The notes under the pieces were generated by a model, which worked only from the letters and a program-made list of their open reading frames with translations, ran no database searches and was not told the DNA's origin. Below, piece after piece: positions 49,293 through 62,155 of a stretch of DNA of 62,613 nt (position 1 is its first letter; every line of letters starts with the position of its first letter). The position numbers and the translations under genes are program-made. The DNA lies in NCBI GenBank assembly GCA_021324465.1, contig JAJPJB010000028.1, positions 1 to 62,613 on the forward strand. Reading direction: 5' to 3'. This stretch comes from Hyphomicrobiaceae bacterium (GTDB lineage: Bacteria > Pseudomonadota > Alphaproteobacteria > Rhizobiales > Xanthobacteraceae).

Positions 49293-49368
49293 GGGCCCGT
49301 AGCTCAATGGTCAGAGCCAGCGGCTCATAACCGCTTGGTTGGAGGTTCGAGTCCTCCCGGGCCCACCA
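49293..49368 (+). tRNA. tRNA with CAU anticodon, probable tRNA-Ile2 (or elongator tRNA-Met)
   Basis: A complete 76-nt cloverleaf with encoded CCA. Acceptor GGGCCCG pairs with CGGGCCC; D-arm GCTC-AATGGTCA-GAGC; anticodon stem AGCGG/CCGCT with loop CTCATAA (CAT at 49326-49328); T-arm GGAGG-TTCGAGT-CCTCC. The C4-G69 and C5-G68 pairs are positive determinants of TilS in E. coli tRNA-Ile2, so the wobble C is probably modified to lysidine and the tRNA reads AUA. Automatic annotation may call it Met. Confidence 0.95.
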
Positions 49369-49409: not shown

Positions 49410-49835
49410 TCAACGGATTATGCGCAGTGAACGCACGCGCGAGAAATCGCGGTCATGCGTCACCAGGGCGGCCGCGTTGATCGTCAATGCGCTAGCCGCT
49501 TGAACGGCGTCTGCCAGCTTGAGGCGGAGCGATGCCCGCAGTTTCGCGGCGCTCTCCGCAATGTCGACGTCGAGCGCGATCGGTTGCCACGATTCGAGGA
49601 TCGCACGGTAACGCCGCGCGAGCGCGTGATCAGCCGCCTGCAGAGGTCCAGTGAGCACCTCGGCAATGGTGATGGTCGTTACGGCGAAGCGCAGGCGCCC
49701 GGCTCCGTGGGCTTCGAAGAGCGGCTTGAAGCGCGGTGCGAATTTCGGGTGCCCTTCAAGGAAGTAGATAATGGGTGCTGAATCGACGAGGAGCAGCGCA
49801 CCCTCGGGCAGCCCCCCAAAATCTAGCGGCTCCAT
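49410..49835 (-). CDS. vapC: PIN-domain toxin, VapC family
   Basis: 141 residues. Predicted Mg-dependent endoribonuclease toxin of a type II toxin-antitoxin pair. The four acidic PIN positions are visible: D18 (LLVDSAPIIYFLEGH), E59 (ITIAEVLTGP), D109 (LKLADAVQAASAL) and D128 (LVTHDRDF). The N-terminal 12 residues overlap the antitoxin gene. Sits 41 bases after the CAU tRNA, convergent to it. Confidence 0.85.
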   Translation of the reverse strand: MEPLDFGGLPEGALLLVDSAPIIYFLEGHPKFAPRFKPLFEAHGAGRLRFAVTTITIAEVLTGPLQAADHALARRYRAILESWQPIALDVDIAESAAKLRASLRLKLADAVQAASALTINAAALVTHDRDFSRVRSLRIIR

Positions 49836-51138: not shown

Positions 51139-51600
51139 ATGTCCGTCGAGGGATTGATCCTGCGCCACGGCGAGGCCCATGGAGTCACGCTGCATCAAAC
51201 TCGTGTCGACTATCTCGTCACAGCGGAGCACTCGAAACAATGCTCGCTCTTTGAGTTTACGGTTGCGCCAGGGTTCAACACGGGTGCGCATTACCACACC
51301 AAGATCGAGGAGATTTTCTACGTTCTCGACGGTGAGCTCGATCTGCGTTGCGGCGAGCGCAGCTTGCGCGGTGGACCGGGGACCTGTGTCTTCGTCCCTC
51401 CCGGCGCGGCGCACGCGTTCGGAAATTCCGGATCGGCACCGGGTCGGATGCTGCTGATCACTGCGCCGGCCGGACACGAGAAATACTTCGATGAATTGCG
51501 TGACCTCATTGCCCGGCAGGGGAAGCCAGACCCCGACTCCCTCGCCAAATTGCGCGCAAAATACGACACGGTCCAGCTCGCCGCGCTGACGCCCGGTTGA
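51139..51600 (+). CDS. Cupin-domain protein
   Basis: 153 residues, single cupin barrel. Motif 1 is GAHYHTKIEEIFYVLDGEL (metal-binding His, His, Glu) and motif 2 is PPGAAHAFGNSG (third His). Such small cupins are dioxygenases, isomerases or sensors; the reaction is not deducible. It stands at the left end of the 51-62 kb catabolic-looking locus, just upstream of the GMC oxidoreductase (63-base gap). Confidence 0.85.
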   Translation: MSVEGLILRHGEAHGVTLHQTRVDYLVTAEHSKQCSLFEFTVAPGFNTGAHYHTKIEEIFYVLDGELDLRCGERSLRGGPGTCVFVPPGAAHAFGNSGSAPGRMLLITAPAGHEKYFDELRDLIARQGKPDPDSLAKLRAKYDTVQLAALTPG

Positions 51601-51663
51601 TCCGGACTGCGGTGGGCGAGAGGGCGGTGCATCACTGCCAGAGAGTCGGCACTCTATTCAACG

Positions 51664-53340
51664 ATGGATAATCCAGACTTTTTGATAGTCGGCGGAGGCA
51701 GTGCCGGTGCAGTGTTGGCTGCGCGGCTTTCCGAGGACCCCAGCACCCGGGTGCTGCTGGTAGAGGCCGGCCGCGATACTCCGCCTGACGCCATTCCCGA
51801 CGACATCACCGACACCTTCCCAAGCTCGTCACTGAACGCGGACTATTTCTGGCCGGGCCTGCAGGCCGTGCGCTCGACCGGTGGGACGGCACGGCCGTAT
51901 CTGCAGGCGCGGGTGATGGGCGGCGGTTCTAGCGTAATGGGAATGTGGGCGCTGCGCGGCATGCCGTCGGACTACGATGCATGGGCCGCCGCCGGCGCCA
52001 GCGGGTGGAGCTGGAGGGATGTCGAGCCGGTCTTCCGGCGGCTTGAGAGGGATGCTGACCGCGGCCGCACCCAGACCGCCTCCGGCGTCTACCCGATCCA
52101 ACGTCTGCCACGCGCGGAGTGGCCCGGCTTTGTGCTTGCGATGGAACGCGAGGCACTGGGCCGCGGACTTTGTTTCATCGACGACATGAATGAACGACCA
52201 GGGGACGGTTTTTTCGCCATGCCGCTGAGTCAGGATGCACAAGGCCGCGCCACCTCTGCGCGCTGCTATCTCAGCGGTTCCGTGCGCCGGCGCAGCAATC
52301 TCGCCATTCTGCCCGAGTCGACGGTCACAAAGATCGACTTCGACGGATTGCGCGTCTGTGGCGCCACCATTAGGCGCTCCAATGCGACGCTGCAAGTTTC
52401 CGCCCGCGAGGTGATTCTGTGTGCCGGCGCGATTCATTCGCCAGCGCTGCTGCTGCGAGCCGGGATCGGGCCTGCCGACGATCTCAAGGCGATCGGGATC
52501 GCGCCGCGCCTTGACCGCGCCGGAGTGGGACGCAACCTGCAGAACCATCCCTATTTGCATTTCGGATTAACGCTGCCGTCGCATGCTCGGCTGCAGCAGC
52601 AGCTTCGGCGGTTCGCCGTGGCCGGCATACGACTATCTTCTGGCCAAGACGGTTGTCCCGAAGGCGATCTGCTTCTGTTCATGATCGGGCGCGTTAGTCC
52701 GCGCCCTTATGGCACACATCTCGCGATGTTGGGCGCCGCGCTTTACTCGCCATGCTCCCGTGGACAGGTCACATTGAGCGGTGCCCGGCCCGATACGGCT
52801 CCGAAGGTCGAGTTCCGCATGTTCGAGGATCCGCGCGATGCGCCGCGCATGCTCAAGGCAGCACGATTCGCCGAAAGCCTGTTGCTTGCCGACAAAGTCG
52901 CCGCCACCTACGACGATGCGTTTCTCCTTCCCCCGGTCATGTCGCTGCATCAGTTCAACCGTCCCGGCGTCGCCGGGAACCTGGTGGCGCTCGCGGTGAG
53001 GGCCGTGCTTAACGCACCGGGCCCGGTGACGCGCCGAATCCTCAGCCGCCGCATTCGGCCCGGACGCTGGGTCGGCAACCGCCATCGCCATTCCCCCATA
53101 AGCGACGCCGAGCTGATCGCCGCGGCGGCGCCGATGGCGCATCCGGTGGGCACTTGCACCATGGGCCGGACGGCTGATCCGATGGCGGTCGTGGACGATC
53201 ACTGCCGTGTTCACGGCGTCGCCAATTTACGCGTGGTCGACGCGTCCGTGATGCCACGCATTCCCAGCGCCAATACCAATCTGCCGACGATCATGATTGC
53301 CGAACACGCGGCCGAGCTTATCCGCGGCGAGCGACGATAG
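51664..53340 (+). CDS. GMC-family FAD-dependent oxidoreductase (choline dehydrogenase-like)
   Basis: 558 residues, oxidises an alcohol or sugar. FAD-binding DFLIVGGGSAGAVLAARLSE at the N-terminus, VMGGGSSVMGMWALRGMP, EVILCAGAIHSPALLLRAGI (GMC signature 2) and the C-terminal MAHPVGTCTMGRTADP with catalytic His, then ASVMPRIPSANTNLPTIMIA. No signal peptide. Faces the livM gene convergently, 4 bases apart. Possible job: first oxidation of the alcohol or a later alcohol intermediate in the locus pathway. Confidence 0.9.
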   Translation: MDNPDFLIVGGGSAGAVLAARLSEDPSTRVLLVEAGRDTPPDAIPDDITDTFPSSSLNADYFWPGLQAVRSTGGTARPYLQARVMGGGSSVMGMWALRGMPSDYDAWAAAGASGWSWRDVEPVFRRLERDADRGRTQTASGVYPIQRLPRAEWPGFVLAMEREALGRGLCFIDDMNERPGDGFFAMPLSQDAQGRATSARCYLSGSVRRRSNLAILPESTVTKIDFDGLRVCGATIRRSNATLQVSAREVILCAGAIHSPALLLRAGIGPADDLKAIGIAPRLDRAGVGRNLQNHPYLHFGLTLPSHARLQQQLRRFAVAGIRLSSGQDGCPEGDLLLFMIGRVSPRPYGTHLAMLGAALYSPCSRGQVTLSGARPDTAPKVEFRMFEDPRDAPRMLKAARFAESLLLADKVAATYDDAFLLPPVMSLHQFNRPGVAGNLVALAVRAVLNAPGPVTRRILSRRIRPGRWVGNRHRHSPISDAELIAAAAPMAHPVGTCTMGRTADPMAVVDDHCRVHGVANLRVVDASVMPRIPSANTNLPTIMIAEHAAELIRGERR

Positions 53341-53344
53341 AATC

Positions 53345-54379
53345 TCACTGAACCGATTGCTCGTCCGCGCGGGCACCTTGCGTCCCGCCGGCCGCGGCTT
53401 TCTCGGCGCGGCCGCGGCCCCAGCGCGTCCATAGCCCCATGATGCCGCCCGGGATGAACAGCGCGATCAGTATCACAATAACGCTGAAGATGGCCCGGTT
53501 GACCTCGGAGGTGAAAGTCACCCGCAGCGCGTCGGCTACCAACAGCACGAGCGGCGCGCCGATCAGCGGCCCTTGCCAGGTCCCGGCGCCGCCGATCACC
53601 GCCATCAGCACGACATTGAGCGATATATCGAAGGCGAATGTTCCGGTCGGCTCGATATACAAAATCCGCTGCGCATATAGTCCGCCGACCACGCCAGCAA
53701 CGAAGCCGGCGAGGCAATTGGCGATCCATTTTACTTCAACGGTACGTATGCCGATAATCTCGGCTGCGTCCTCGTCTTCACGTATTGCAACCAAAGCCCA
53801 GCCGAAATTCGAATGTTCAATGGCGTAGACCAGCAAAGTCACCAAGGCGGCGCAAGCGAGGAACAGATAATAGAACAATCGCTCGACCCCGAGCGGGGTA
53901 AGGCTTAAAGGCTGCAAATATATGCCGAGCGCCCCCTGGGTGAACGGCATGTCGAGCACGAGAATCTGCACCGCGAAGGTTATGATCAAGGTGATCAGCG
54001 CGAAGTAAGCGCCACGGATGCGCAACGTCGGGATGCCGATCAGCAGAGCGAGTGCCGCGGATGTAATTCCGGCGAATGGCGCGGTCAAAAAGGGCGAGAT
54101 CTCCCAATATTGGAACAGCACAGCGCTGGTATATGCGCCGACGCCAAAGAAAGTGACCATGCCGAAATTGAGATAGCCGCCGTAGCCGCCGAGAATGTTC
54201 CAGGCCTGCGTCAGCGCGATGTAGAGAAAGACGGTGCCCAGAGTGCTCAGCAGAAAGAGCTGGCGGCCCAGCACGCCATAGAGCGCGAGCACCGACAGCG
54301 CGAGAAGCCAAGGAGCCCGGCGGTAAATGCGGCCGGAGGCGGATTCGCGGGTCGATGGCAGGAAAAACAGCGAGAGCAT
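53345..54379 (-). CDS. livM: Branched-chain amino acid-type ABC transporter permease LivM
   Basis: 344 residues from the ATG at 54379. Eight or nine membrane segments; the family core NILGGYGGYLNFGMVTFFGV, LRGAYFALITLIITFAVQ and the ALVAIREDEDAAEIIGI cytoplasmic loop (EAA-like) are present. The C-terminus (about 300-344) is a polar tail rich in Arg/Gly/Ala. Last gene of the importer operon; 8 bases after livH. Confidence 0.9.
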   Translation of the reverse strand: MLSLFFLPSTRESASGRIYRRAPWLLALSVLALYGVLGRQLFLLSTLGTVFLYIALTQAWNILGGYGGYLNFGMVTFFGVGAYTSAVLFQYWEISPFLTAPFAGITSAALALLIGIPTLRIRGAYFALITLIITFAVQILVLDMPFTQGALGIYLQPLSLTPLGVERLFYYLFLACAALVTLLVYAIEHSNFGWALVAIREDEDAAEIIGIRTVEVKWIANCLAGFVAGVVGGLYAQRILYIEPTGTFAFDISLNVVLMAVIGGAGTWQGPLIGAPLVLLVADALRVTFTSEVNRAIFSVIVILIALFIPGGIMGLWTRWGRGRAEKAAAGGTQGARADEQSVQ

Positions 54380-54387
54380 CGGGCCCT

Positions 54388-55263
54388 CTAGATTGCGCGG
54401 CGGACGGCGAGCGTAAGGCCCTCGCGACGCAGCACCAGAACGGCGGCAAGCAGGACATAAAGAACAAGATAAACGTAATCGAATGGTAGGAACGCCGCGC
54501 ACAGCGTTTGCAGCAAGCCGACGATCAGGCCCGCGACCAGAGTGTTGGCGACATTGCCGAGCCCGCCCAGAATGACGACAAGAAAGGCCCAGGCGAGCCA
54601 CTGCACCTGAGTATTCGGCGAGAACGGAAAAATCATTGCGAGCGCTACACCGGCGGCGCCGGCACAGGCGATGCCGAGCCCGAACATCATGGTCGAGAGA
54701 CGCCGCACATCGATGCCCGCGCTCATCGCGGCGTCTCGATTCTGACTCATGGCGCGAATGGCGCGACCGACGAGTGTGAACCGCAAGAAAGCCCAAAAGA
54801 TAGCCGTCAAGGCGAGAGCGAGTATTCCCGCTATCAATTTTACCTTTGCGATAAAGAGCCCGCCGACGACCACTGACGAATTGGTGTAACTGGCGGTAAT
54901 CACGCGCGTGTCAGTGGTCCAGACGATGGTGCCGAGGTTCTCGATCAGCACCATCAGCCCGAACATCGCAACAAGGCCCTGCGCTTGTGCCACCCGCTCC
55001 AGCCGCGTAAGCAGCATGCGATAGACCACCGTGCCGAGCACGAAGAACACTGGCAGGGCCAGAAAAAAGGAGATGATCGGATCAATCCCGAGCCGCTCGA
55101 ATAATTCGAAAGCGAAGAACGAGCCAAGCATGATGAACGCGCTGTGGGCGACATTGACGATACCCATGATGCCGAGCACGAGACTGAGGCCCAGACCGGC
55201 AATGGCATAGATCAGCCCCAGGAGAATCCCATCCGCTGCGATGGCTGCAAGATGTTCAAGCAT
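54388..55263 (-). CDS. livH: Branched-chain amino acid-type ABC transporter permease LivH
   Basis: 291 residues. Membrane permease with the N-terminal GILLGLIYAIAGLGLSLVLG, GIVNVAHSAFIMLGSFFA and the EAA-type loop RAMSQNRDAAMSAGIDVRRL. Start at 55263 (MLEHLAAIAADG), 34 bases after livF. It forms the transmembrane pore with LivM. Confidence 0.92.
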   Translation of the reverse strand: MLEHLAAIAADGILLGLIYAIAGLGLSLVLGIMGIVNVAHSAFIMLGSFFAFELFERLGIDPIISFFLALPVFFVLGTVVYRMLLTRLERVAQAQGLVAMFGLMVLIENLGTIVWTTDTRVITASYTNSSVVVGGLFIAKVKLIAGILALALTAIFWAFLRFTLVGRAIRAMSQNRDAAMSAGIDVRRLSTMMFGLGIACAGAAGVALAMIFPFSPNTQVQWLAWAFLVVILGGLGNVANTLVAGLIVGLLQTLCAAFLPFDYVYLVLYVLLAAVLVLRREGLTLAVRRAI

Positions 55264-55297
55264 TCTCAGCACTGTGCGCTGTTGTTGGACACATCTG

Positions 55298-56035
55298 TCA
55301 AACGCCCAGCCAACGGCGCACCATTGCGCCGAGATCGCCGTGGAAGGCGGAGCTGTCGCCTTCAATATCGTTCCTGCCCGAATTCAATACATAGACGTAG
55401 TCGGCGACATTGATCGCGGCGCGCACGTCCTGGTCGACCAGCAGGATAGCCCGGCCCTCCGCCTTCAAAGCCTGCAGCTCACGATAAACCTGGCTCGCGA
55501 CGATCGGCGACAGGCCGACTGACGGCTCGTCGATCAGGAGCACGGTCGGATCTGAAACGATAAGTCGCGCAATCTCCACCGCCCGCTGTTGCCCGCCGCT
55601 GAGCGCGCCGGTCGGCTTGTTGCGCAGCTCGCGCAAATGCGAGTACCGCTCGAACATGGCTTCCACGGCGCGGCGCAATCGCTTGCGATCGGAGCGCATC
55701 GTCCAGCCGCCGAGCTCAATATTCTCGGTGACGGTGAGCTCCGGAAATGTCGAGCGGCCTTGCGGCAGGAGCGCAATGCCCCGTTCGATGTGACGATGCG
55801 GCGGCAGGGCCGAGATCTCGGTCTCGCCCAGGACGATGCTGCCGCTCGATGGCCGCAGAAAGCCGGCAATTGATCGCAGCAACGTGGATTTGCCGGCTCC
55901 GTTCGGGCCCAAAACAACGGTGATGTGACCGGGCTTGGCGACGAGATTGACGCCGCGCAGGACCGGATGGCCGGGCGTGTAGCCGGCAACGATCTCCTGG
56001 ATCCTCAATGTCGACGTTGTGCGGCTCATGTTCAT
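55298..56035 (-). CDS. livF: Branched-chain amino acid-type ABC transporter ATPase LivF
   Basis: 245 residues. Walker A VLGPNGAGKSTLLRS, Q-loop LLPQGRSTFPELT, signature LSGGQQRAVEIARLI, Walker B LLIDEPSVGLSP and switch His/Gln replaced by VDQD (as usual in LivF). The ATG at 56035 overlaps the livG stop (ATGA). Confidence 0.93.
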   Translation of the reverse strand: MNMSRTTSTLRIQEIVAGYTPGHPVLRGVNLVAKPGHITVVLGPNGAGKSTLLRSIAGFLRPSSGSIVLGETEISALPPHRHIERGIALLPQGRSTFPELTVTENIELGGWTMRSDRKRLRRAVEAMFERYSHLRELRNKPTGALSGGQQRAVEIARLIVSDPTVLLIDEPSVGLSPIVASQVYRELQALKAEGRAILLVDQDVRAAINVADYVYVLNSGRNDIEGDSSAFHGDLGAMVRRWLGV

Positions 56036-56769
56036 GCGCGGCCCAAATAGCCCTCGATCACGCGTTCGTTGTGAATGACGTCGAGCGGCATGCCGGCGCT
56101 CGCTACTTTCCCCTCCACCAGGCACACCATGAAATCGGACATGTTGACGAGTTCAGGCACCTCGTGACTGACGATGACAAAGGAGGTGGCCTCTTGCGCC
56201 ACGGTTTTCCTGATGGAGCGTATCAAGAGCGCTTTGATCTCGGGATGGATGCCGGCGAACGGCTCGTCCATCAAAACAAGGCGAGGCCGGGTCACGAGCG
56301 CACGAGCGAACTCCAGTAGCCGCTGCTGACCGCCGGAGATTTCGCTCGCGATGCGGTCCGCATGCGGTCGCAGGCTGACGAGATCGAGCAATTCATCGGC
56401 GCGATCGACTGCGGCCGAACGGGCGATCGCGGCCCGATGCAGCAGCGGTATAAACAAATTCTGCCGAACCGTAAGAGTGCGAAATACGCGCGCGGACTGA
56501 AAAGTGCGGCTCACCCCGGCGGCGGCAAGGTCGCAGGATCGCTTCCCGTCAATGCGGATGCCGGCAAGCTTTACCGCGCCCCGATCAGGGGCAAGGACGC
56601 CGTTGATCACGTTGAGCAGGGTGGTCTTGCCCGAGCCATTCGGTCCGATCAGCCCGAGCACGGCGCTCGGTTGCACTGGAAACGACACGTCATCGAGGGC
56701 AACGACGCCGCCGAAATGTTTTGCGACGGCCTCGATCGACAAGAGCGGGGCCGGAATGGACGCAGTCAT
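56032..56769 (-). CDS. livG: Branched-chain amino acid-type ABC transporter ATPase LivG
   Basis: 245 residues. Walker [17 protein letters not shown], signature ISGGQQRLLEFARAL, Walker B LVLMDEPFAGIHP and switch His in FVIVSHEV. The first codons overlap the substrate-binding protein's stop by 4 bases (ATGA), so expression is coupled. With LivF it energises uptake. Confidence 0.93.
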   Translation of the reverse strand: MTASIPAPLLSIEAVAKHFGGVVALDDVSFPVQPSAVLGLIGPNGSGKTTLLNVINGVLAPDRGAVKLAGIRIDGKRSCDLAAAGVSRTFQSARVFRTLTVRQNLFIPLLHRAAIARSAAVDRADELLDLVSLRPHADRIASEISGGQQRLLEFARALVTRPRLVLMDEPFAGIHPEIKALLIRSIRKTVAQEATSFVIVSHEVPELVNMSDFMVCLVEGKVASAGMPLDVIHNERVIEGYLGRA

Positions 56770-57998
56770 GGCGCCTTCAGAACGGGCGCGGCGGTCTGAA
56801 ACTGCTTTGGCCAGACCACCTGATTCTTGCCGTTGACATATTGCAGAACGACTTGGCTGAAGACCGGCGTGCCGTCCTCCTGGTAGCGGAAGTTGCCGGC
56901 GGCGGTCTTAAATTCATTGCTGTGAATGTAGGCCTTGAGCTTCTGCTGATCCAAGGTCTTGGCGCCTTCGACCGCCTGCTCGAGCACCTGCAGGATGGCG
57001 TAGCCAACGATCGCATAGGTCGGCAGCGTATCATAGCCGCGCGCCTTGAAGGCGTCCGCGAGCTCAGCGAGTCCCTGATAGCCTTGCGTCGGCCACGATA
57101 CGGTGGTGCCGAACACGCCTTCCGCCGCACTCCCCAGCTTGGGCCAGGCCGCAAGGGTCGTTACCTGCGAACCGCAGGTACAGAGAATCGAAGGCTTATA
57201 GCCCTGCTGCTGGACTGTGCGCGCGACCTGCAGCGAATCGTTGGGCAGTCCAAGCTCCAGCACGAGGTCGGCATTCGCCGCCTTGGCCTTTTGCACGAGA
57301 CCGGTAAAGTCGGTGGTGTTCGGCGGGTATTGCTCATTGACAACCACTTCCGCCCCGGCCGCCTTGGCATAATTGATCGCTCCGCCGACGCCACCAACGC
57401 CGTCACGGACCACCAGCGGGAATGGATTCTGCGCAGTGAAAATCGCGACCCGCTTTGGTCGCTTATCCTCCGGCAGACCTTTGATCAGCTCGAACAGGCC
57501 GCGAGTGTAATCCGGCTCTTGATAGGTGTAGCTGCCGATGATCGAGCCTTTGGCGTTCTTGAAAATGTTGACGCCGACGAACCCGCCATTGAACAAAAGC
57601 TTCTGATGTGAGAGCATGATCGGTACAATCGCGCCGCCGATGAAGGTCGTATATGGGGCCAGCACGAGATCGACCTGGTCCTGATCAAGCAGCCGATTGT
57701 AGAGCGACTGCGCCACCGTCGGCGTGCTCTCGTCATTGTAGATGATCATCTTGACAGGGCGTCCAAGCAGGCCGCCTTTCTTGTTGATCTCGTCGAGCCA
57801 CCGATCGTATACCGCCTTGTAATCAGTCGAAGGTTCGGCGAAGCTTCCCGTGAGTCCGAGCGTGCCGCCGACCACAATCGGGCTCGGTTGCGCGGCCGCG
57901 CTGGCTGCGCCCCATATCGCGCTGGCTGCGCCCCATATGGTCAACGCCACCACCAACCCAAATGCGCATCCGCTGCGCAGTGCGACCATACCCATCAT
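56766..57998 (-). CDS. ABC transporter substrate-binding protein (Leu/Ile/Val-binding family, periplasmic)
   Basis: 410 residues from the ATG at 57998, preceded by GGGAGGTTGGCG. Signal peptide about residues 1-35 contains the duplicated IWGAASAIWGAASA (21-bp tandem repeat). The mature part begins PSPIVVGGTLGLTGSFAEPS, the Peripla_BP_6 fold entry. These proteins bind amino acids, amides, aromatic acids or similar; the ligand is not deducible. First of the transport genes, 70 bases after the dehydrogenase. Confidence 0.9.
   Translation of the reverse strand: MMGMVALRSGCAFGLVVALTIWGAASAIWGAASAAAQPSPIVVGGTLGLTGSFAEPSTDYKAVYDRWLDEINKKGGLLGRPVKMIIYNDESTPTVAQSLYNRLLDQDQVDLVLAPYTTFIGGAIVPIMLSHQKLLFNGGFVGVNIFKNAKGSIIGSYTYQEPDYTRGLFELIKGLPEDKRPKRVAIFTAQNPFPLVVRDGVGGVGGAINYAKAAGAEVVVNEQYPPNTTDFTGLVQKAKAANADLVLELGLPNDSLQVARTVQQQGYKPSILCTCGSQVTTLAAWPKLGSAAEGVFGTTVSWPTQGYQGLAELADAFKARGYDTLPTYAIVGYAILQVLEQAVEGAKTLDQQKLKAYIHSNEFKTAAGNFRYQEDGTPVFSQVVLQYVNGKNQVVWPKQFQTAAPVLKAP
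57898..57939 (-). repeat. 21-bp tandem duplication in the signal peptide of the binding protein
   Basis: Copies 57898-57918 and 57919-57939 begin GCGCTGGCTGCGCCCCATAT and differ only in the last base. It duplicates seven residues of the signal peptide's hydrophobic core and cleavage region. Confidence 0.92.
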
Positions 57999-58068
57999 CG
58001 CCAACCTCCCATATGCTTTGTTTGTGTTTGTTGCTTGTTGTGTGACCGCGTTATGCCTTCCGCATCCG

Positions 58069-58941
58069 CTATTCGAGCGCGGCACGCCGTGCGGCGACCC
58101 GTGTGATGGCGGACCAGTCCTTGTGCCCGTCGCCATGGGCAAGGGCGTCGAGGTAATTGTCGCGCAAAACGCTGGCAAAAGGCAGCGGCACGTTCACCTC
58201 CTCGCCGGCTGCAAGTGCCAGCTTGGCGTCCTTGAGTCCGAGGCGGAGATCGAAGCCGGGCGGTTCGAATTTGCCGCTGCTGATCAAGCCCGCATAGATC
58301 CGATAAACCGGAACGTCGAAGATCGAACCAACCACGGCATTGAGAACATCGGCGGGCGACATCTTGTAGGCGCGTGCCAATGCCGCGGCTTCTCCCATCG
58401 CTTCAATGATGCAGGCGACCATCAGGTTTCCGGCGATTTTGGCCACGCTTGAATTGGTCGGCACATCGCCGAGCCGCCAGGTCTTCCTGCCCATGGCGTC
58501 AAACAGCGGCTGGACTCGTTCGATCGCGGCTGGATCGCCCGCGGCAAGGATGTTGAGGTTGCGTTCGGCAGCCATTTCCGGACGGCCATAGACGGTCGCC
58601 GCGACATAGCTCACGCCGCGCGCCCGATGCGCGTCAGCAAGCTCCTTGGTGCAGTCGATCGAGGCGGTCGCCATGTTGAGGTGAATGGATGCGCCGGCCT
58701 TGGCGAGGATATCGCTGTCGAGGAACGTCTCCCGCATCGCATCGTCATTCGGCAGCATCGAAATCACGGCATCGCCGCGGAATGCATCAGCGGCGCTGCT
58801 TGCAACTTCGGCGCCGTCGTTTCGGATACGGTCCCGCGCGCTCGGCGAAATGTCCCACGCCCGCACGCGATGCCCGGCCTTGAGCAGGTTCCTGGCCATC
58901 GCCGTGCCCATCCTGCCGATTCCAATGAAACCGACATCCAT
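58069..58941 (-). CDS. NAD(P)-dependent 3-hydroxyisobutyrate dehydrogenase family enzyme
   Basis: 290 residues, beta-hydroxyacid dehydrogenase. Rossmann GFIGIGRMGTAMARNL, the conserved substrate-binding NMATASIDCTKELADAHRAR and the catalytic Lys in SVAKIAGNLMVACIIEAMGE are present. Leads the importer operon on the minus strand, suggesting the imported compound is converted to a beta-hydroxyacid or related acid that this enzyme oxidises or reduces. Substrate unknown. Confidence 0.9.
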   Translation of the reverse strand: MDVGFIGIGRMGTAMARNLLKAGHRVRAWDISPSARDRIRNDGAEVASSAADAFRGDAVISMLPNDDAMRETFLDSDILAKAGASIHLNMATASIDCTKELADAHRARGVSYVAATVYGRPEMAAERNLNILAAGDPAAIERVQPLFDAMGRKTWRLGDVPTNSSVAKIAGNLMVACIIEAMGEAAALARAYKMSPADVLNAVVGSIFDVPVYRIYAGLISSGKFEPPGFDLRLGLKDAKLALAAGEEVNVPLPFASVLRDNYLDALAHGDGHKDWSAITRVAARRAALE

Positions 58942-59001
58942 GTTCGTTTCTCCATCTGCCTGACATGCACGTGCCGCCCAAGCGGTACGCTAGTCCGGCG
59001 C

Positions 59002-59013
59002 GCAAACGTTTGC
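59002..59013. promoter_or_regulatory. LacI-type operator palindrome GCAAACGTTTGC, site 1
   Basis: Perfect 12-base palindrome with the central CG typical of LacI/PurR operators. It lies 60 bases upstream of the dehydrogenase start and overlaps a possible -35 (TTGCAA) for the minus-strand operon, with TAGCGT 17 bases on as a -10. Confidence 0.85.
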
Positions 59014-59103
59014 AACAACGCGCTGGTGATATCCGACCGGGGCGGAACTGCGCGTTCGTTGAAAGAGCGCGCAAATATCACGGCACCATCGCCAAACTCG
59101 CCC

Positions 59104-59132
59104 TTGACAGTCGGCGGCGCATGCGCAAACGT
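59104..59132 (+). promoter_or_regulatory. Promoter of the nitrilase operon, -10 covered by operator
   Basis: TTGACA (59104-59109) followed after 17 bases by AAACGT as a weak -10 (59127-59132), which lies inside operator site 2. A repressor bound there would block RNA polymerase. Confidence 0.45.
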
Positions 59133-59136
59133 TTGC
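59125..59136. promoter_or_regulatory. LacI-type operator palindrome GCAAACGTTTGC, site 2
   Basis: Identical to site 1 and centred 123 bases from it, allowing looping between sites. It is 54 bases upstream of the nitrilase start. Confidence 0.85.
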
Positions 59137-59190
59137 ACAACCTCGCCGGCCGTGCCGGCGCAGAGGCTGACGGTTTGCGTGGGCACTTCG

Positions 59191-60357
59191 ATGGGCGATG
59201 CATACCCGGTAATCAAGGTCGCGGCCGTGCAGGCCGCATCGGTATTTCTCGATCGCGAAGGGTCGACCGAGAAGGCCTGCAGCCTGATCCGGGAGGCCGG
59301 CCGTAACGGTGCGCAGATCATTGGCTTCCCCGAAGGATTCATTCCAGCGCACCCGATCTGGTATCACCATCACCCTGCTACAGGCACGATCGCGAACCGG
59401 CTCGCGGTGGAACTCTTCAAGAATGCCGTTGAAATTCCCGGGCCCGAACTGGCGGCACTTTGCGCGGCGGCACGCGATGCGAGCGCCTATGTTGTGATCG
59501 GCGTCTGCGAAAAGCAGCCACAGACGCTCGGCACGATGTTCAACTCGCAGGTCTTCATCGGGCCCGACGGCACCTACCTGGGCAAACATCAGAAGATCAT
59601 GCCGACGGTCGGCGAGCGGCTCGTGCATATGGGCGGCTTTGGCGACACACTTCATGCCTTTCCAACAAAGTTCGGGCCGATGAGCGGATTGATCTGTGGC
59701 GAGAACTCAAACCCGCTTGCGGTCTTCGCCATGACGGCGGAAGGATCGCGCATTCATGTCATGAGCTGGCCCAATCATTTCCCGACCAGCGGCGATCCGA
59801 TGCGCAATCGGGTGAGCATCGATTCGCAGGCCTTCGCTCAGATGAGCAAGGCATTCGTGGTGTCGGCCTGCGGCACTGTGGACGAGGGCGTTATTCGCAG
59901 ACTTCAGCCGAGTCCGGAGAGTGAGCGATTCTTGCGCAATCCCGATTGTTGCGGCGGCAGCGTGATCGTTGCGCCCAACAGCCGGATCATTGCCGGCCCG
60001 CTGGGCGCGGAAGAAGGCATCCTCTATGCCGACTGCAACCTCGATCTCGGCATCAACATGAAGCTGCGGCATGATTTCGCCGGGCATTACAATCGTCCTG
60101 ACATTTTTCAGCTCCAGGTTAACCGGAGCACGCCGCAGATCTACAGCGTCGTCGGCGTCGAGGAGCAGCGCGAGCTTCCGCGACCCGGTGTGCCGCTGCC
60201 GATCGACGAACGACAAAACGTGCTGCCCCGGCCGCCAAGGCAGTTGCCGTCACCTCGGTCTGCATCGGAGTCGCATTCCGACGGAAGTTCTCAACAAAAG
60301 GCGAGACGTCGAAGCAAGACGCGCAGTCGGCGTCGGCCAGATCGCCGTGTGTCTTAA
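59191..60357 (+). CDS. Nitrilase (carbon-nitrogen hydrolase) with basic C-terminal tail
   Basis: 388 residues from the ATG at 59191. Catalytic triad of the nitrilase superfamily: Glu in IIGFPEGFIPAHPIW, Lys in GKHQKIMPTVGERLVH, Cys in SGLICGENSNPLA. The CGENxNP form is that of true nitrilases or aromatic nitrilases, which convert R-CN to the acid and ammonia. The last about 45 residues (RQLPSPRSASESHSDGSSQQ then Arg/Lys-rich) form a basic Ser/Arg tail that is unusual; the family is about 310-340 long. Followed 11 bases later by the CMD-like gene. Confidence 0.88.
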   Translation: MGDAYPVIKVAAVQAASVFLDREGSTEKACSLIREAGRNGAQIIGFPEGFIPAHPIWYHHHPATGTIANRLAVELFKNAVEIPGPELAALCAAARDASAYVVIGVCEKQPQTLGTMFNSQVFIGPDGTYLGKHQKIMPTVGERLVHMGGFGDTLHAFPTKFGPMSGLICGENSNPLAVFAMTAEGSRIHVMSWPNHFPTSGDPMRNRVSIDSQAFAQMSKAFVVSACGTVDEGVIRRLQPSPESERFLRNPDCCGGSVIVAPNSRIIAGPLGAEEGILYADCNLDLGINMKLRHDFAGHYNRPDIFQLQVNRSTPQIYSVVGVEEQRELPRPGVPLPIDERQNVLPRPPRQLPSPRSASESHSDGSSQQKARRRSKTRSRRRPDRRVS

Positions 60358-60368
60358 GGGAGAGATCG

Positions 60369-61025
60369 ATGGCAAAGCAGCGTATCAGTTATGTACCCGT
60401 GGAGCGGATGGACGAGGCGATGCGCGCCGAGATGGAGCGCTGTCGGCGGGAGGGCACCCCGCGACCGGAAAGCTCCGCGATCCGGGCCCATGTCCCGGCC
60501 TGCTTCTGGTTCTTTGCCAATTCATGGCGCGACATCTTCCGCAATGGCATCCTCGACCACGCCATCAAGGAGCTGTGCCGACTCTATGTTTCGCGTTCTG
60601 TGCAATGCGAGTACTGCGGCAATCAGCGCTCCGTGAAGGCCACCAAATCTGGCGCTGTGATCGAGGATCACGTCCTTGACCTTCTGAATTTCGAGGCATC
60701 GCCCCACTACAATGAGCGGCAGAAGGCGGCGTTATCCTATGCCGAGGCTATTACTTGGCATCTCAATCCCGACGATTCGTTCTGGGAACGGCTTTATCGC
60801 CATTTCAGCGAGGCTCAGCTGGTGGAACTCGGCTGCATGATCGGTCTTACGCTCGGTCAGCAAAGCTGGCTCCGGCTCCTCAATATCGAACACCATCAGG
60901 TGCTCGCCGGCACCGATGCGTCGATGGCGCCCGGCTACGAGGATGCCGAGCGGCTTGCCGTTACCAAATCAAAGCCGGATTATTGGGCCGCCGGCTCGGG
61001 GCGGCGGCCGCAATCTGCCGCATGA
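60369..61025 (+). CDS. Carboxymuconolactone decarboxylase/AhpD-like protein
   Basis: 218 residues. All-helical AhpD/CMD-type fold with a CxxC pair in VQCEYCGNQRSVKATKSG and the region NERQKAALSYAEAITWHLNP. Members are peroxidases or decarboxylases or of unknown role. The His after CxxC that AhpD uses is not obvious, so redox activity is uncertain. It shares a transcript with the nitrilase. Confidence 0.82.
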   Translation: MAKQRISYVPVERMDEAMRAEMERCRREGTPRPESSAIRAHVPACFWFFANSWRDIFRNGILDHAIKELCRLYVSRSVQCEYCGNQRSVKATKSGAVIEDHVLDLLNFEASPHYNERQKAALSYAEAITWHLNPDDSFWERLYRHFSEAQLVELGCMIGLTLGQQSWLRLLNIEHHQVLAGTDASMAPGYEDAERLAVTKSKPDYWAAGSGRRPQSAA

Positions 61026-61072
61026 ACAGTCAACGGATGTGAACCGGCATCTTTGAAGCGCGACGAGCAAAT

Positions 61073-62155
61073 TTGGCACGGCCGATGAAGCGGTCGGGGC
61101 GGGGCAGGCAGCAGGTGACCGTTCGCGAGGTTGCGCGTGCGGCTGGTGTGCATTTCTCGACGGTTTCGCGGGTCATGAATCCGCGGACCCGCGAGCAGAT
61201 CACCGACAACGTCGCCAAACGCGTGCTTAGAGCCGCGGAGCGGCTAGGATATCGGACCAATGCGCTCGCTGCGAGCCTTCGAACGCGGCGTTCGCGCGTC
61301 ATTGGCATTATTGTGCCGTATATCGACAGTCCGATTTATCCGCCGATTCTGCTCGCTATTGAAGAGGTTCTCAACGAACGGGGATATGTCGCCATCATCT
61401 GCAACACCCAGAACGACCCGGCGCGCGAGGAACGGGCACTCGCCGAGATGATGGCGCGTCAGGTCGACGGTCTGATCCTGGGCAGCGCCACGCGACACGA
61501 CCCGATTGTCAAGGCCTGGGCGAGGCGTGGCGCGCCGCTCGTCATGGTCAATCGCACGGATCAGACCGGCGAAACGCCCTCAGTCGTTACGGATGACGTT
61601 TTTGGGATTCGTTTGGTGGTCGATCATCTCGCCGAGTTGGGGCACAAGACCATTGGTCACATTGCAGGTCCGCAACAGCTGTCGACCGGTTCGGCGCGAA
61701 GCGAGGGCTTTCGCCAGGCGGTCGCCCGACTGGGCCTGCGTGCGGCAGCGCAGACAGTCGTGATCGCGGAGGATTTCACGCGCGAGGCCGGGCGGCGGGC
61801 ATGTCACAAGCTCCTTAATCAATTTCCGCAGACCACCGCGATTGCCGCAGCCAACGACCTGCTCGCGATCGGCTGCTACGAAGCTCTTCATGAACGAGGC
61901 CTGGCCTGCCCAAAGGACATATCTGTCACCGGCTACAACGACAGTCCCTTTGTCGACCTGTTGACCCCGCCGCTCACCACGGTGCGCATTCCCCAGCGGG
62001 AAATTGGCTCACGCGCGGCACGCATGCTGCTGCAGAGGATAGAGGAGGGGAGCGCGGCAAATGCGGACGTGGTCCTTCGTCCGCAGCTTGTCGTTCGACA
62101 ATCAGCCGCGGCTCCTCGGATCGCCGATCTGCTTTCGCACGCCGGCAAGGATTGA
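61073..62155 (+). CDS. LacI-family transcriptional regulator
   Basis: 360 residues. N-terminal helix-turn-helix TVREVARAAGVHFSTVSRVM, hinge helix NALAASLRTRRSRVIGIIVP and a PBP-type ligand-binding core (IYPPILLAIEEVLNERGYVA, VDGLILGSATRHDP, SVTGYNDSPFVDLLTPPLTT). Expected to repress its neighbours by binding the GCAAACGTTTGC palindromes at 59002 and 59125, with effector possibly the imported ligand or a pathway intermediate. Located 47 bases after the CMD-like gene, possibly in the same operon. Confidence 0.9.
   Translation: MARPMKRSGRGRQQVTVREVARAAGVHFSTVSRVMNPRTREQITDNVAKRVLRAAERLGYRTNALAASLRTRRSRVIGIIVPYIDSPIYPPILLAIEEVLNERGYVAIICNTQNDPAREERALAEMMARQVDGLILGSATRHDPIVKAWARRGAPLVMVNRTDQTGETPSVVTDDVFGIRLVVDHLAELGHKTIGHIAGPQQLSTGSARSEGFRQAVARLGLRAAAQTVVIAEDFTREAGRRACHKLLNQFPQTTAIAAANDLLAIGCYEALHERGLACPKDISVTGYNDSPFVDLLTPPLTTVRIPQREIGSRAARMLLQRIEEGSAANADVVLRPQLVVRQSAAAPRIADLLSHAGKD

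Follow-up and report, generated by a model that had tools for sequence, protein, structure and literature searches.

A candidate LacI-governed catabolic locus with a nitrilase, a Liv-type importer and a GMC oxidoreductase in a Hyphomicrobiaceae bacterium

The window analysed here, a stretch of 62,613 nucleotides from a Hyphomicrobiaceae bacterium, carries at positions 51139-62155 a group of genes that we consider rather likely to form a catabolic locus governed by a dedicated LacI-type repressor, which would control both of two divergent units and the pathway proposed below. Exact operator-like palindromes occur in both divergent promoters and the gene set recurs in two further genomes, therefore the co-location of these genes goes beyond chance. 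The compound is probably an acid of aromatic or hydroxylated type together with the corresponding nitrile. Among the titles and abstract openings listed in a literature search there was no description of this gene set, no paper on the motif strings searched and none on LacI-family repression of nitrilase catabolism, in agreement with a previous sequence-only reading that had called the locus a candidate undescribed one.

All genes named in that reading were found within the interval, and two divergent units start from the gap at 58942-59190. The leftward unit (minus strand) comprises a beta-hydroxyacid-dehydrogenase-like gene (58069-58941) and the genes of a Liv-type importer, namely a periplasmic binding protein (56766-57998; PF13458, 170 bits; signal peptide recognized by eye), a livG-like ATPase (56032-56769; PF00005) whose start overlaps with the binding-protein stop codon, a livF-like ATPase (55298-56029; PF00005), a livH-like permease (54388-55263; PF02653) and a livM-like permease (53345-54379; PF02653), with the starts of the last three taken as the ATGs at 56029, 55263 and 54379, respectively. 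The rightward unit (plus strand) consists of a nitrilase (59191-60357), a CMD/AhpD-superfamily protein (60369-61025) and a LacI-family regulator (61085-62155, with a possible alternative TTG start at 61073). A cupin-domain protein (51139-51600; PF07883, 62 bits) and a GMC oxidoreductase (51664-53340) are also encoded on the plus strand. A tRNA-Pro inside lacI was considered and dropped, as Rfam reports only the tRNA at 49293.

The palindrome GCAAACGTTTGC, of LacI type, has one exact copy in each divergent promoter: predicted operator 1 (59002-59013) lies 60 bp before the dehydrogenase start, and predicted operator 2 (59125-59136) lies 54 bp before the nitrilase start and overlies the -10 position of a promoter whose -35-like element, TTGACA (59104-59109, plus strand), was read by eye. 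The 13-mer GCAAACGTTTGCA, i.e., the palindrome plus one base, occurs twice and nowhere else in the 4.57-Mb genome (G000), where 0.06 copies are expected, and twice in G006, at the matching intergenic region. CG-centred even palindromes 5' of the target genes with the regulator gene adjacent correspond to the layout of a local LacI regulon, and the available part of a survey of such regulons (PMC4052901) describes the same features, namely even palindromes, a central CG and a regulator beside its targets, as well as site positions that fit those seen here. The same part of that survey places 96% of assigned groups in carbohydrate metabolism, unlike this locus, and the word nitrilase is absent from its main text.

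Sites of the same kind were found elsewhere. An operator upstream of the dehydrogenase also occurs in loci L046 and L044, where the operator-to-nitrilase distances are 35 and 34 bp and the -35-like elements TTGACA and TTGACT, respectively; in some Actinobacteria the palindrome stands 5' of the nitrilase, exact in L098 and L108. Sites with at most one mismatch numbered 29 across 131 loci (1.87 Mb), as compared to 0 to 12 for 12 permuted palindromes, and 22 of them lay at most 150 bp from the start of nit, cmd, lacI, the dehydrogenase gene or gmc in a hand count that entered one locus twice (L122 = L240); three of the 29 fall within a nitrilase gene, two of them in a single locus and the third in L047. 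Such a site was present in only 5 of 77 nit promoters. Exact palindromes in 248 genomes of the family amounted to 25 distinct sites vs. 12 for the reversed control, with 12 of the 25 touching the gene set within 1.5 kb and 13 touching none of it. Since no operator was found upstream of the cupin gene or gmc in the window, LacI control of gmc may be confined to relatives such as L044, in which gmc sits between the dehydrogenase gene and nit with an operator upstream.

The best NCBIfam model for the regulator is RbsR, at 246 bits and below its cut-off of 382. Matches of at least 53% identity in the 248 family genomes are seven, the window's own included, and all seven adjoin cmd or nit or stand one gene away, whereas none of the 11 matches at 47-51% lies within 1.5 kb of either gene; the 53% cut-off was chosen after the matches were known, and for all 18 matches taken together 6 genomes have cmd. 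The window LacI groups with LacI proteins of other cmd/nit loci in a seven-member clade (support 94/93). The LacI control proposed by the sequence-only reading is thus supported by the predicted operators in both promoters and with the placement of the seven closest LacI matches.

The nitrilase (PF00795, 130.5 bits) carries CGENSNP at residues 169-175, and Glu48, Lys135, Glu142, Cys169 and Gly170 could be assigned, the first four being invariant in 23 sequences. Its best solved match is NitA (PDB 6zby; E 3e-48, 167.7 bits over about 300 residues), which we take to be the arylacetonitrilase of Pseudomonas fluorescens EBC191; the relationship is distant; the Glu, Lys, Glu and Cys align and the residue after the catalytic Cys is small in both, Gly in the window enzyme and Ala in NitA. 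The CN_hydrolase domain and the aligned Glu-Lys-Cys place the protein in the C-N hydrolase family. The Nit6803 family model TIGR04048 gave 180.3 bits against a cut-off of 502.6, with a scanned frame that began upstream of the start.

Among the oxidoreductases, the GMC enzyme (about 112 bits for both PF00732, cut-off 23, and PF05199, cut-off 24.6) has HMF oxidase 4udp as nearest solved relative, a distant one (322 bits); both have GMC domains, and the pair His493 and Asn537 aligns with a His and an Asn of 4udp. Hydroxynitrile lyases differ from HMF oxidase at this pair, and a hydroxynitrile-lyase role was dropped on account of the alignment. The dehydrogenase, previously assigned to the 3-hydroxyisobutyrate family, retains the superfamily domains PF03446 and PF14833 and has 4gbj as nearest solved relative (E 7e-54); it remained under the cut-off of all 13 NCBIfam models listed (148.9 vs. 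291.6 for HIBADH, TIGR01692), hence "family" in that label means superfamily. The CMD-like protein reaches the CMD/AhpD superfamily weakly (PF02627, 26.6 bits vs. a cut-off of 23) and carries a CxxC (Cys80, Cys83), with both Cys invariant in 11 sequences. The AhpD motif is a Cys-x-x-Cys with a following His, and in the same 11 sequences no His stands at the expected place.

The importer has the binding protein, two permeases and two ATPases of Liv/HAAT systems, by the Pfam domains of all five, and is complete as previously stated. No listed Liv or urea NCBIfam model reached its cut-off for the four parts scanned (binding protein, livG, livH and livM), the livG-like protein scoring 176 bits vs. 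362 for LivG among the best 25 of 186 matches. The nearest solved relative of the binding protein is 3ip5 (E 5e-15). Liv proteins of Actinobacteria show 27-40% identity and may have been recruited separately.

The neighborhood is conserved, contrary to the absence that had been named as grounds for rejecting the locus: the gene set recurs in G006 and, in rearranged order with set and operators kept, in L044. The cupin does not recur; relatives were found in none of 80 nitrilase loci (the best 80 of 176), so that, of the earlier claim, the gene itself stands and its membership in the recurring set is probably lost. Across the family, nit and cmd occur together in 22 of 27 nitrilase genomes, and cmd is present in all six binding-protein genomes, in all seven dehydrogenase genomes at 62% identity or above (a cut-off chosen after the matches were known; of all 15 matches at E 1e-70, 8 genomes have cmd) and in 8 of 11 gmc genomes. 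The co-occurrence P values take no account of relatedness; counted by genus, cmd occurs in 9 of 9 nit genera vs. 19 of 47 genera in total (P 7e-5). At E 1e-60 an FrsA-like hydrolase was matched in 7 of 21 genomes and had no match in G000, which makes it at best an optional pathway partner.

In the proposed mechanism, the repressor would occupy the two palindromes when no inducer is present, keeping off both dehydrogenase-importer and nitrilase-CMD-lacI units, its own gene included, until LacI binds the compound or one of its breakdown products and both are expressed. The importer would then bring the compound into the cell, the nitrilase would convert nitrile-bearing forms to acid and ammonia, and the CMD-like protein, the dehydrogenase and the GMC enzyme, as alcohol oxidase or dehydrogenase, would process the acid or hydroxy compound further; we infer this order of reactions, as we do the repression and autoregulation. 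Aromatic-degradation genes near nit and near cmd point to an aromatic compound through relatives of these two genes, whose other neighbors are unlike this locus. More tentatively, a nitrilase-CMD regulon controlled by LacI and the palindrome may be common to Alphaproteobacteria and Actinobacteria, which would give LacI a role outside carbohydrate metabolism and mark a widespread pathway that centers on the CMD-like protein, with nitrilase, importer and GMC enzyme as interchangeable points of entry.

The sequence-only reading had the importer take in a nitrile that the nitrilase then opens, and this part of its interpretation found no support in that form, while the LacI-controlled catabolic locus with conserved neighbors did find it. 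Importer and dehydrogenase accompany this nitrilase in the family only in G000 and G006 (L044 lies outside this count), the nitrilase being present in 2 of 6 binding-protein and 2 of 7 dehydrogenase genomes (at least 62%). Four genomes (G134, G163, G172, G194), all with cmd at another place, have gmc and the binding protein but lack this nitrilase, so what is imported does not have to be a nitrile. One repressor might accordingly serve two modules, Liv-dehydrogenase-GMC for a non-nitrile compound and nitrilase plus CMD for another or later step, with the nitrilase only broadening the substrate range; the first of these modules lies in one piece in G163 and G194, in stretches (L189, L191) that yielded no operator site. 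We regard this as unlikely, given the operator in both units of G000, G006 and L044 and the pairing of nit with LacI and a Liv importer in L101, L108 and L119.

Removal of nitriles or cyanohydrins for detoxification or nitrogen scavenging, with the other genes secondary, would be in line with cyanide dihydratases among the solved nitrilase relatives at a score nearly equal to NitA and with rhodanese-like genes in 10 of 80 nitrilase loci (best 80 of 176). It appears improbable, as importer and two oxidoreductases point toward carbon-compound use and no rhodanese gene is among the eleven locus genes. Betaproteobacterial loci suggest a cyanohydrin route through nitrilase, FMN-dependent hydroxyacid dehydrogenase, 2-oxoacid dehydrogenase and rhodanese, the last three of which are absent from this locus; for two gene rows of betaproteobacterial type, the gene names come from a single scanned member of each cluster. 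The carbohydrate share of pathway-assigned LacI groups noted above (PMC4052901, available part) and RbsR as best model would suit breakdown of a sugar-linked nitrile (e.g., a cyanogenic glycoside) with LacI sensing the sugar-like part, but the importer is Liv-type and the eleven genes include neither glycosidase nor sugar kinase, which leaves this reading more doubtful still. Chance co-location in a variable region after tRNA-Met is very improbable: the window and six genomes of the same genus do differ in the sequence that follows this tRNA, but the set is kept in G006 and, reordered, in L044, operators stand in both promoters and the genes co-occur across 248 genomes.

The favored reading, a repressor-governed catabolic locus, can be set against nitrilase clusters already described. 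According to the parts of the sources available, the genomic context of class 1 nitrilases is not conserved between major groups (survey, PMC10098168), a finding that speaks against the favored reading, and for many bacterial nitrilases the natural role is unclear (PMC1199592). Nit1C, in the available text of PMC1199592, combines a nitrilase with radical SAM, acetyltransferase and AIR-synthase genes, has no conserved transcription-factor sites identified and, like this locus, is a nitrilase-centred cluster in distant taxa whose physiology is unknown; a Nit1C reading was dropped because those three genes are absent among the eleven, and LacI, operators, importer and CMD distinguish the present locus. 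For neighbor families, taken from the best 80 nitrilase loci of 176, the control consisted of 40 windows of 20 kb that were chosen by hand at round coordinates from eleven genomes within a single family, whereas the nitrilase loci span phyla and supplied the families themselves; 4 of 35 families also matched controls (RieA 1, FrsA_c40 1, SsuB 4 and MoCo 2 of 40). A candidate repressor, two mapped predicted operators and co-occurring genes make one nitrilase a testable regulon that, if true, would bring a nitrile-linked case into a regulator family whose assignments are mostly to sugars. In Mycolicibacterium agri CCUG37673 (L101), a named strain, the nitrilase is accompanied by a LacI gene and preceded by a palindrome with one mismatch.

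The locus at 51139-62155 would be a LacI-controlled catabolic locus, as the sequence-only reading had proposed, and computation supports this well. All the genes which that reading named are present in the window (contig C64 of a 4.57-Mb source genome) according to gene and domain checks, and a gap at 58942-59190 separates two divergent units. To its left lie a dehydrogenase-like gene of the beta-hydroxyacid (3-hydroxyisobutyrate) superfamily, the binding protein, livG, livF, livH and livM, and to its right the nitrilase, the carboxymuconolactone decarboxylase-like protein (CMD) and lacI, with spacings of 11 and 59 bp, while the GMC oxidoreductase gene comes after the cupin and is oriented towards livM. 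A perfect 21-bp tandem duplication (57897-57938) occupies part of the signal-peptide coding sequence of the binding-protein gene. ARAGORN placed a tRNA-Pro inside lacI (61675-61762), probably falsely, given no Rfam call at gathering score. About ten copies of the 7-bp repeat CGCCGCA end the contig (62542-62613), perhaps the place where the assembly broke.

Between the two units the palindrome GCAAACGTTTGC appears twice without mismatch, at 59002 and 59125, which is 60 and 54 bp, respectively, upstream of the two start codons. The 13-mer GCAAACGTTTGCA, with 0.06 copies expected from base composition, occurs twice in the whole genome, both times in this gap, and twice in G006, a genome of the same genus, both within the orthologous gap. 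Read by eye, a TTGACA at 59104 places the 59125 operator on the nitrilase promoter's -10 position, and TTGACA and TTGACT stand at equal distance in the relatives L046 (the G006 locus) and L044. In L044, where the GMC gene is placed between dehydrogenase and nitrilase, operators occupy the dehydrogenase-GMC gap and the region upstream of the nitrilase, one in each. The nitrilase is likewise preceded by an exact site in L098 and L108 and by a site with a single mismatch in L101; in L188, L199, L242 and L245 a site lies in the cmd-lacI interval. Allowing up to one mismatch, 131 loci gave 29 sites, one locus (L122 = L240) being counted twice, against 0 to 12 for each of twelve permuted palindromes; 22 of the 29 (hand count) are no further than 150 bp from where a nitrilase, cmd, lacI, dehydrogenase or GMC gene starts, and three fall inside nitrilase genes (L047; L122 = L240). 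Such a site was present in 5 of 77 nitrilase promoters, so the operator marks only LacI-type loci.

Among 248 genomes of the family, 18 LacI matches were retrieved (E 1e-90). The seven of at least 53% identity, a line set after the results were seen, include that of the window; all stand beside cmd and/or nitrilase (one gene away from the latter in G284) and form a group in a tree of 29 rows (support 94/93). Neither gene occurred in the 1.5-kb flanks of the 11 matches at 47-51%, of which two had an operator-like site nearby and one an adjoining M24 gene. The 13-mer occupied 25 distinct places in 22 of these genomes, its reversed control giving 12 matches. Twelve places were within about 1.5 kb of cmd, nitrilase, dehydrogenase, a HIBADH-like or M24 gene belonging to the set, or a LacI with at least 41% identity; the other 13 had none of these within that distance, and therefore about half of the sites may be due to chance. 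In G056 the site separates a LacI (42%) from an M24-HIBADH-E1-E2 row. Two of the 13 adjoin E1/E2-like genes (G072) and a LacI of 29% (G055).

CMD looks like the hub. In the 248 genomes nitrilase was found in 27, cmd in 58 and both in 22 (P 1.2e-11, with no correction for relatedness). Counted by genus, cmd was present in 9/9 nitrilase genera vs. 19/47 overall (P 7e-5). It accompanied the binding protein in 6/6 genomes, the dehydrogenase (at least 62%) in 7/7, the GMC gene in 8/11 and LacI (at least 53%) in 6/7, or, without identity lines, 8/15 for dehydrogenase and 6/18 for LacI. Nitrilase was not significantly linked to either binding protein (2/6) or dehydrogenase (2/7) in the same genomes, and the suggestion that the importer brings in a nitrile is hence not supported. 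Four genomes, G134, G163, G172 and G194, have GMC and binding-protein genes but lack this nitrilase; in G163 and G194 these genes and the dehydrogenase are contiguous. Near CMD relatives, with one representative scanned each, an HpaB-like cluster was seen in three loci and a benzoate-CoA-ligase-family cluster in two (740.8 bits, cut-off 375). In L178, L201, L238, L251, L253, L254 and L255, cmd stands repeatedly in a row with an FrsA-like hydrolase and importer genes of the NitT/TauT type, mostly with an M24 gene close by; a relative of the hydrolase in L071 best matched 2,6-dihydroxypseudooxynicotine hydrolase (2jbw, E 2e-45).

The proposed set recurs in L044 and L046, but without the cupin; in L044 the contig end cuts cmd and lacI lies beyond reach. 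Among the best 80 of 176 nitrilase loci, whose record titles are mainly alpha-/betaproteobacterial and actinobacterial MAGs, cmd of at least 40% was near the nitrilase in ten, plus the cut copy in L044, and LacI in seven; neither appeared in 40 hand-picked control windows of relatives. Nitrilase, LacI (41-45%) and a Liv importer (27-40%) stand together in L101, L108 and L119. Some other nitrilase loci carry Rieske, extradiol dioxygenase and nitroreductase genes, and further ones HIBADH-like, rhodanese, 2-oxoacid dehydrogenase, M24 and FrsA-like genes. In L051, L053, L061, L076 and L094 members of the same nitrilase clade have AndAc-like Rieske, nitroreductase and extradiol dioxygenase genes close by, a setting suggestive of aromatic nitriles.

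The nitrilase of the window aligned best with NitA (6zby), cyanide dihydratases being close behind, and its Glu48, Lys135, Glu142 and Cys169 are invariant across 23 relatives. The residue after the catalytic Cys is Gly; since bulky residues there gave higher R-selectivity and less amide in the EBC191 nitrilase, according to PMC6930498, a small one would be in line with a pocket of lower selectivity, though this evidence is weak. By alignment, the GMC oxidoreductase has kept the His-Asn pair seen in HMF oxidase.

Nucleotide similarity with six genomes of the same genus stops at the 3' end (49368) of a tRNA-Met (49293-49368), the stretches past it (415 to 15,746 bases compared) gave no mutual blastn match at 1e-5, and in G006 the locus and metX-metW-tRNA are on different contigs. 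This suggests that a variable insertion region, perhaps a hotspot, follows the tRNA. A second copy of the tRNA's final 14 bases was not found in the window. A minus-strand ORF at 49410-49835 resembles, by eye, a PIN-domain protein.
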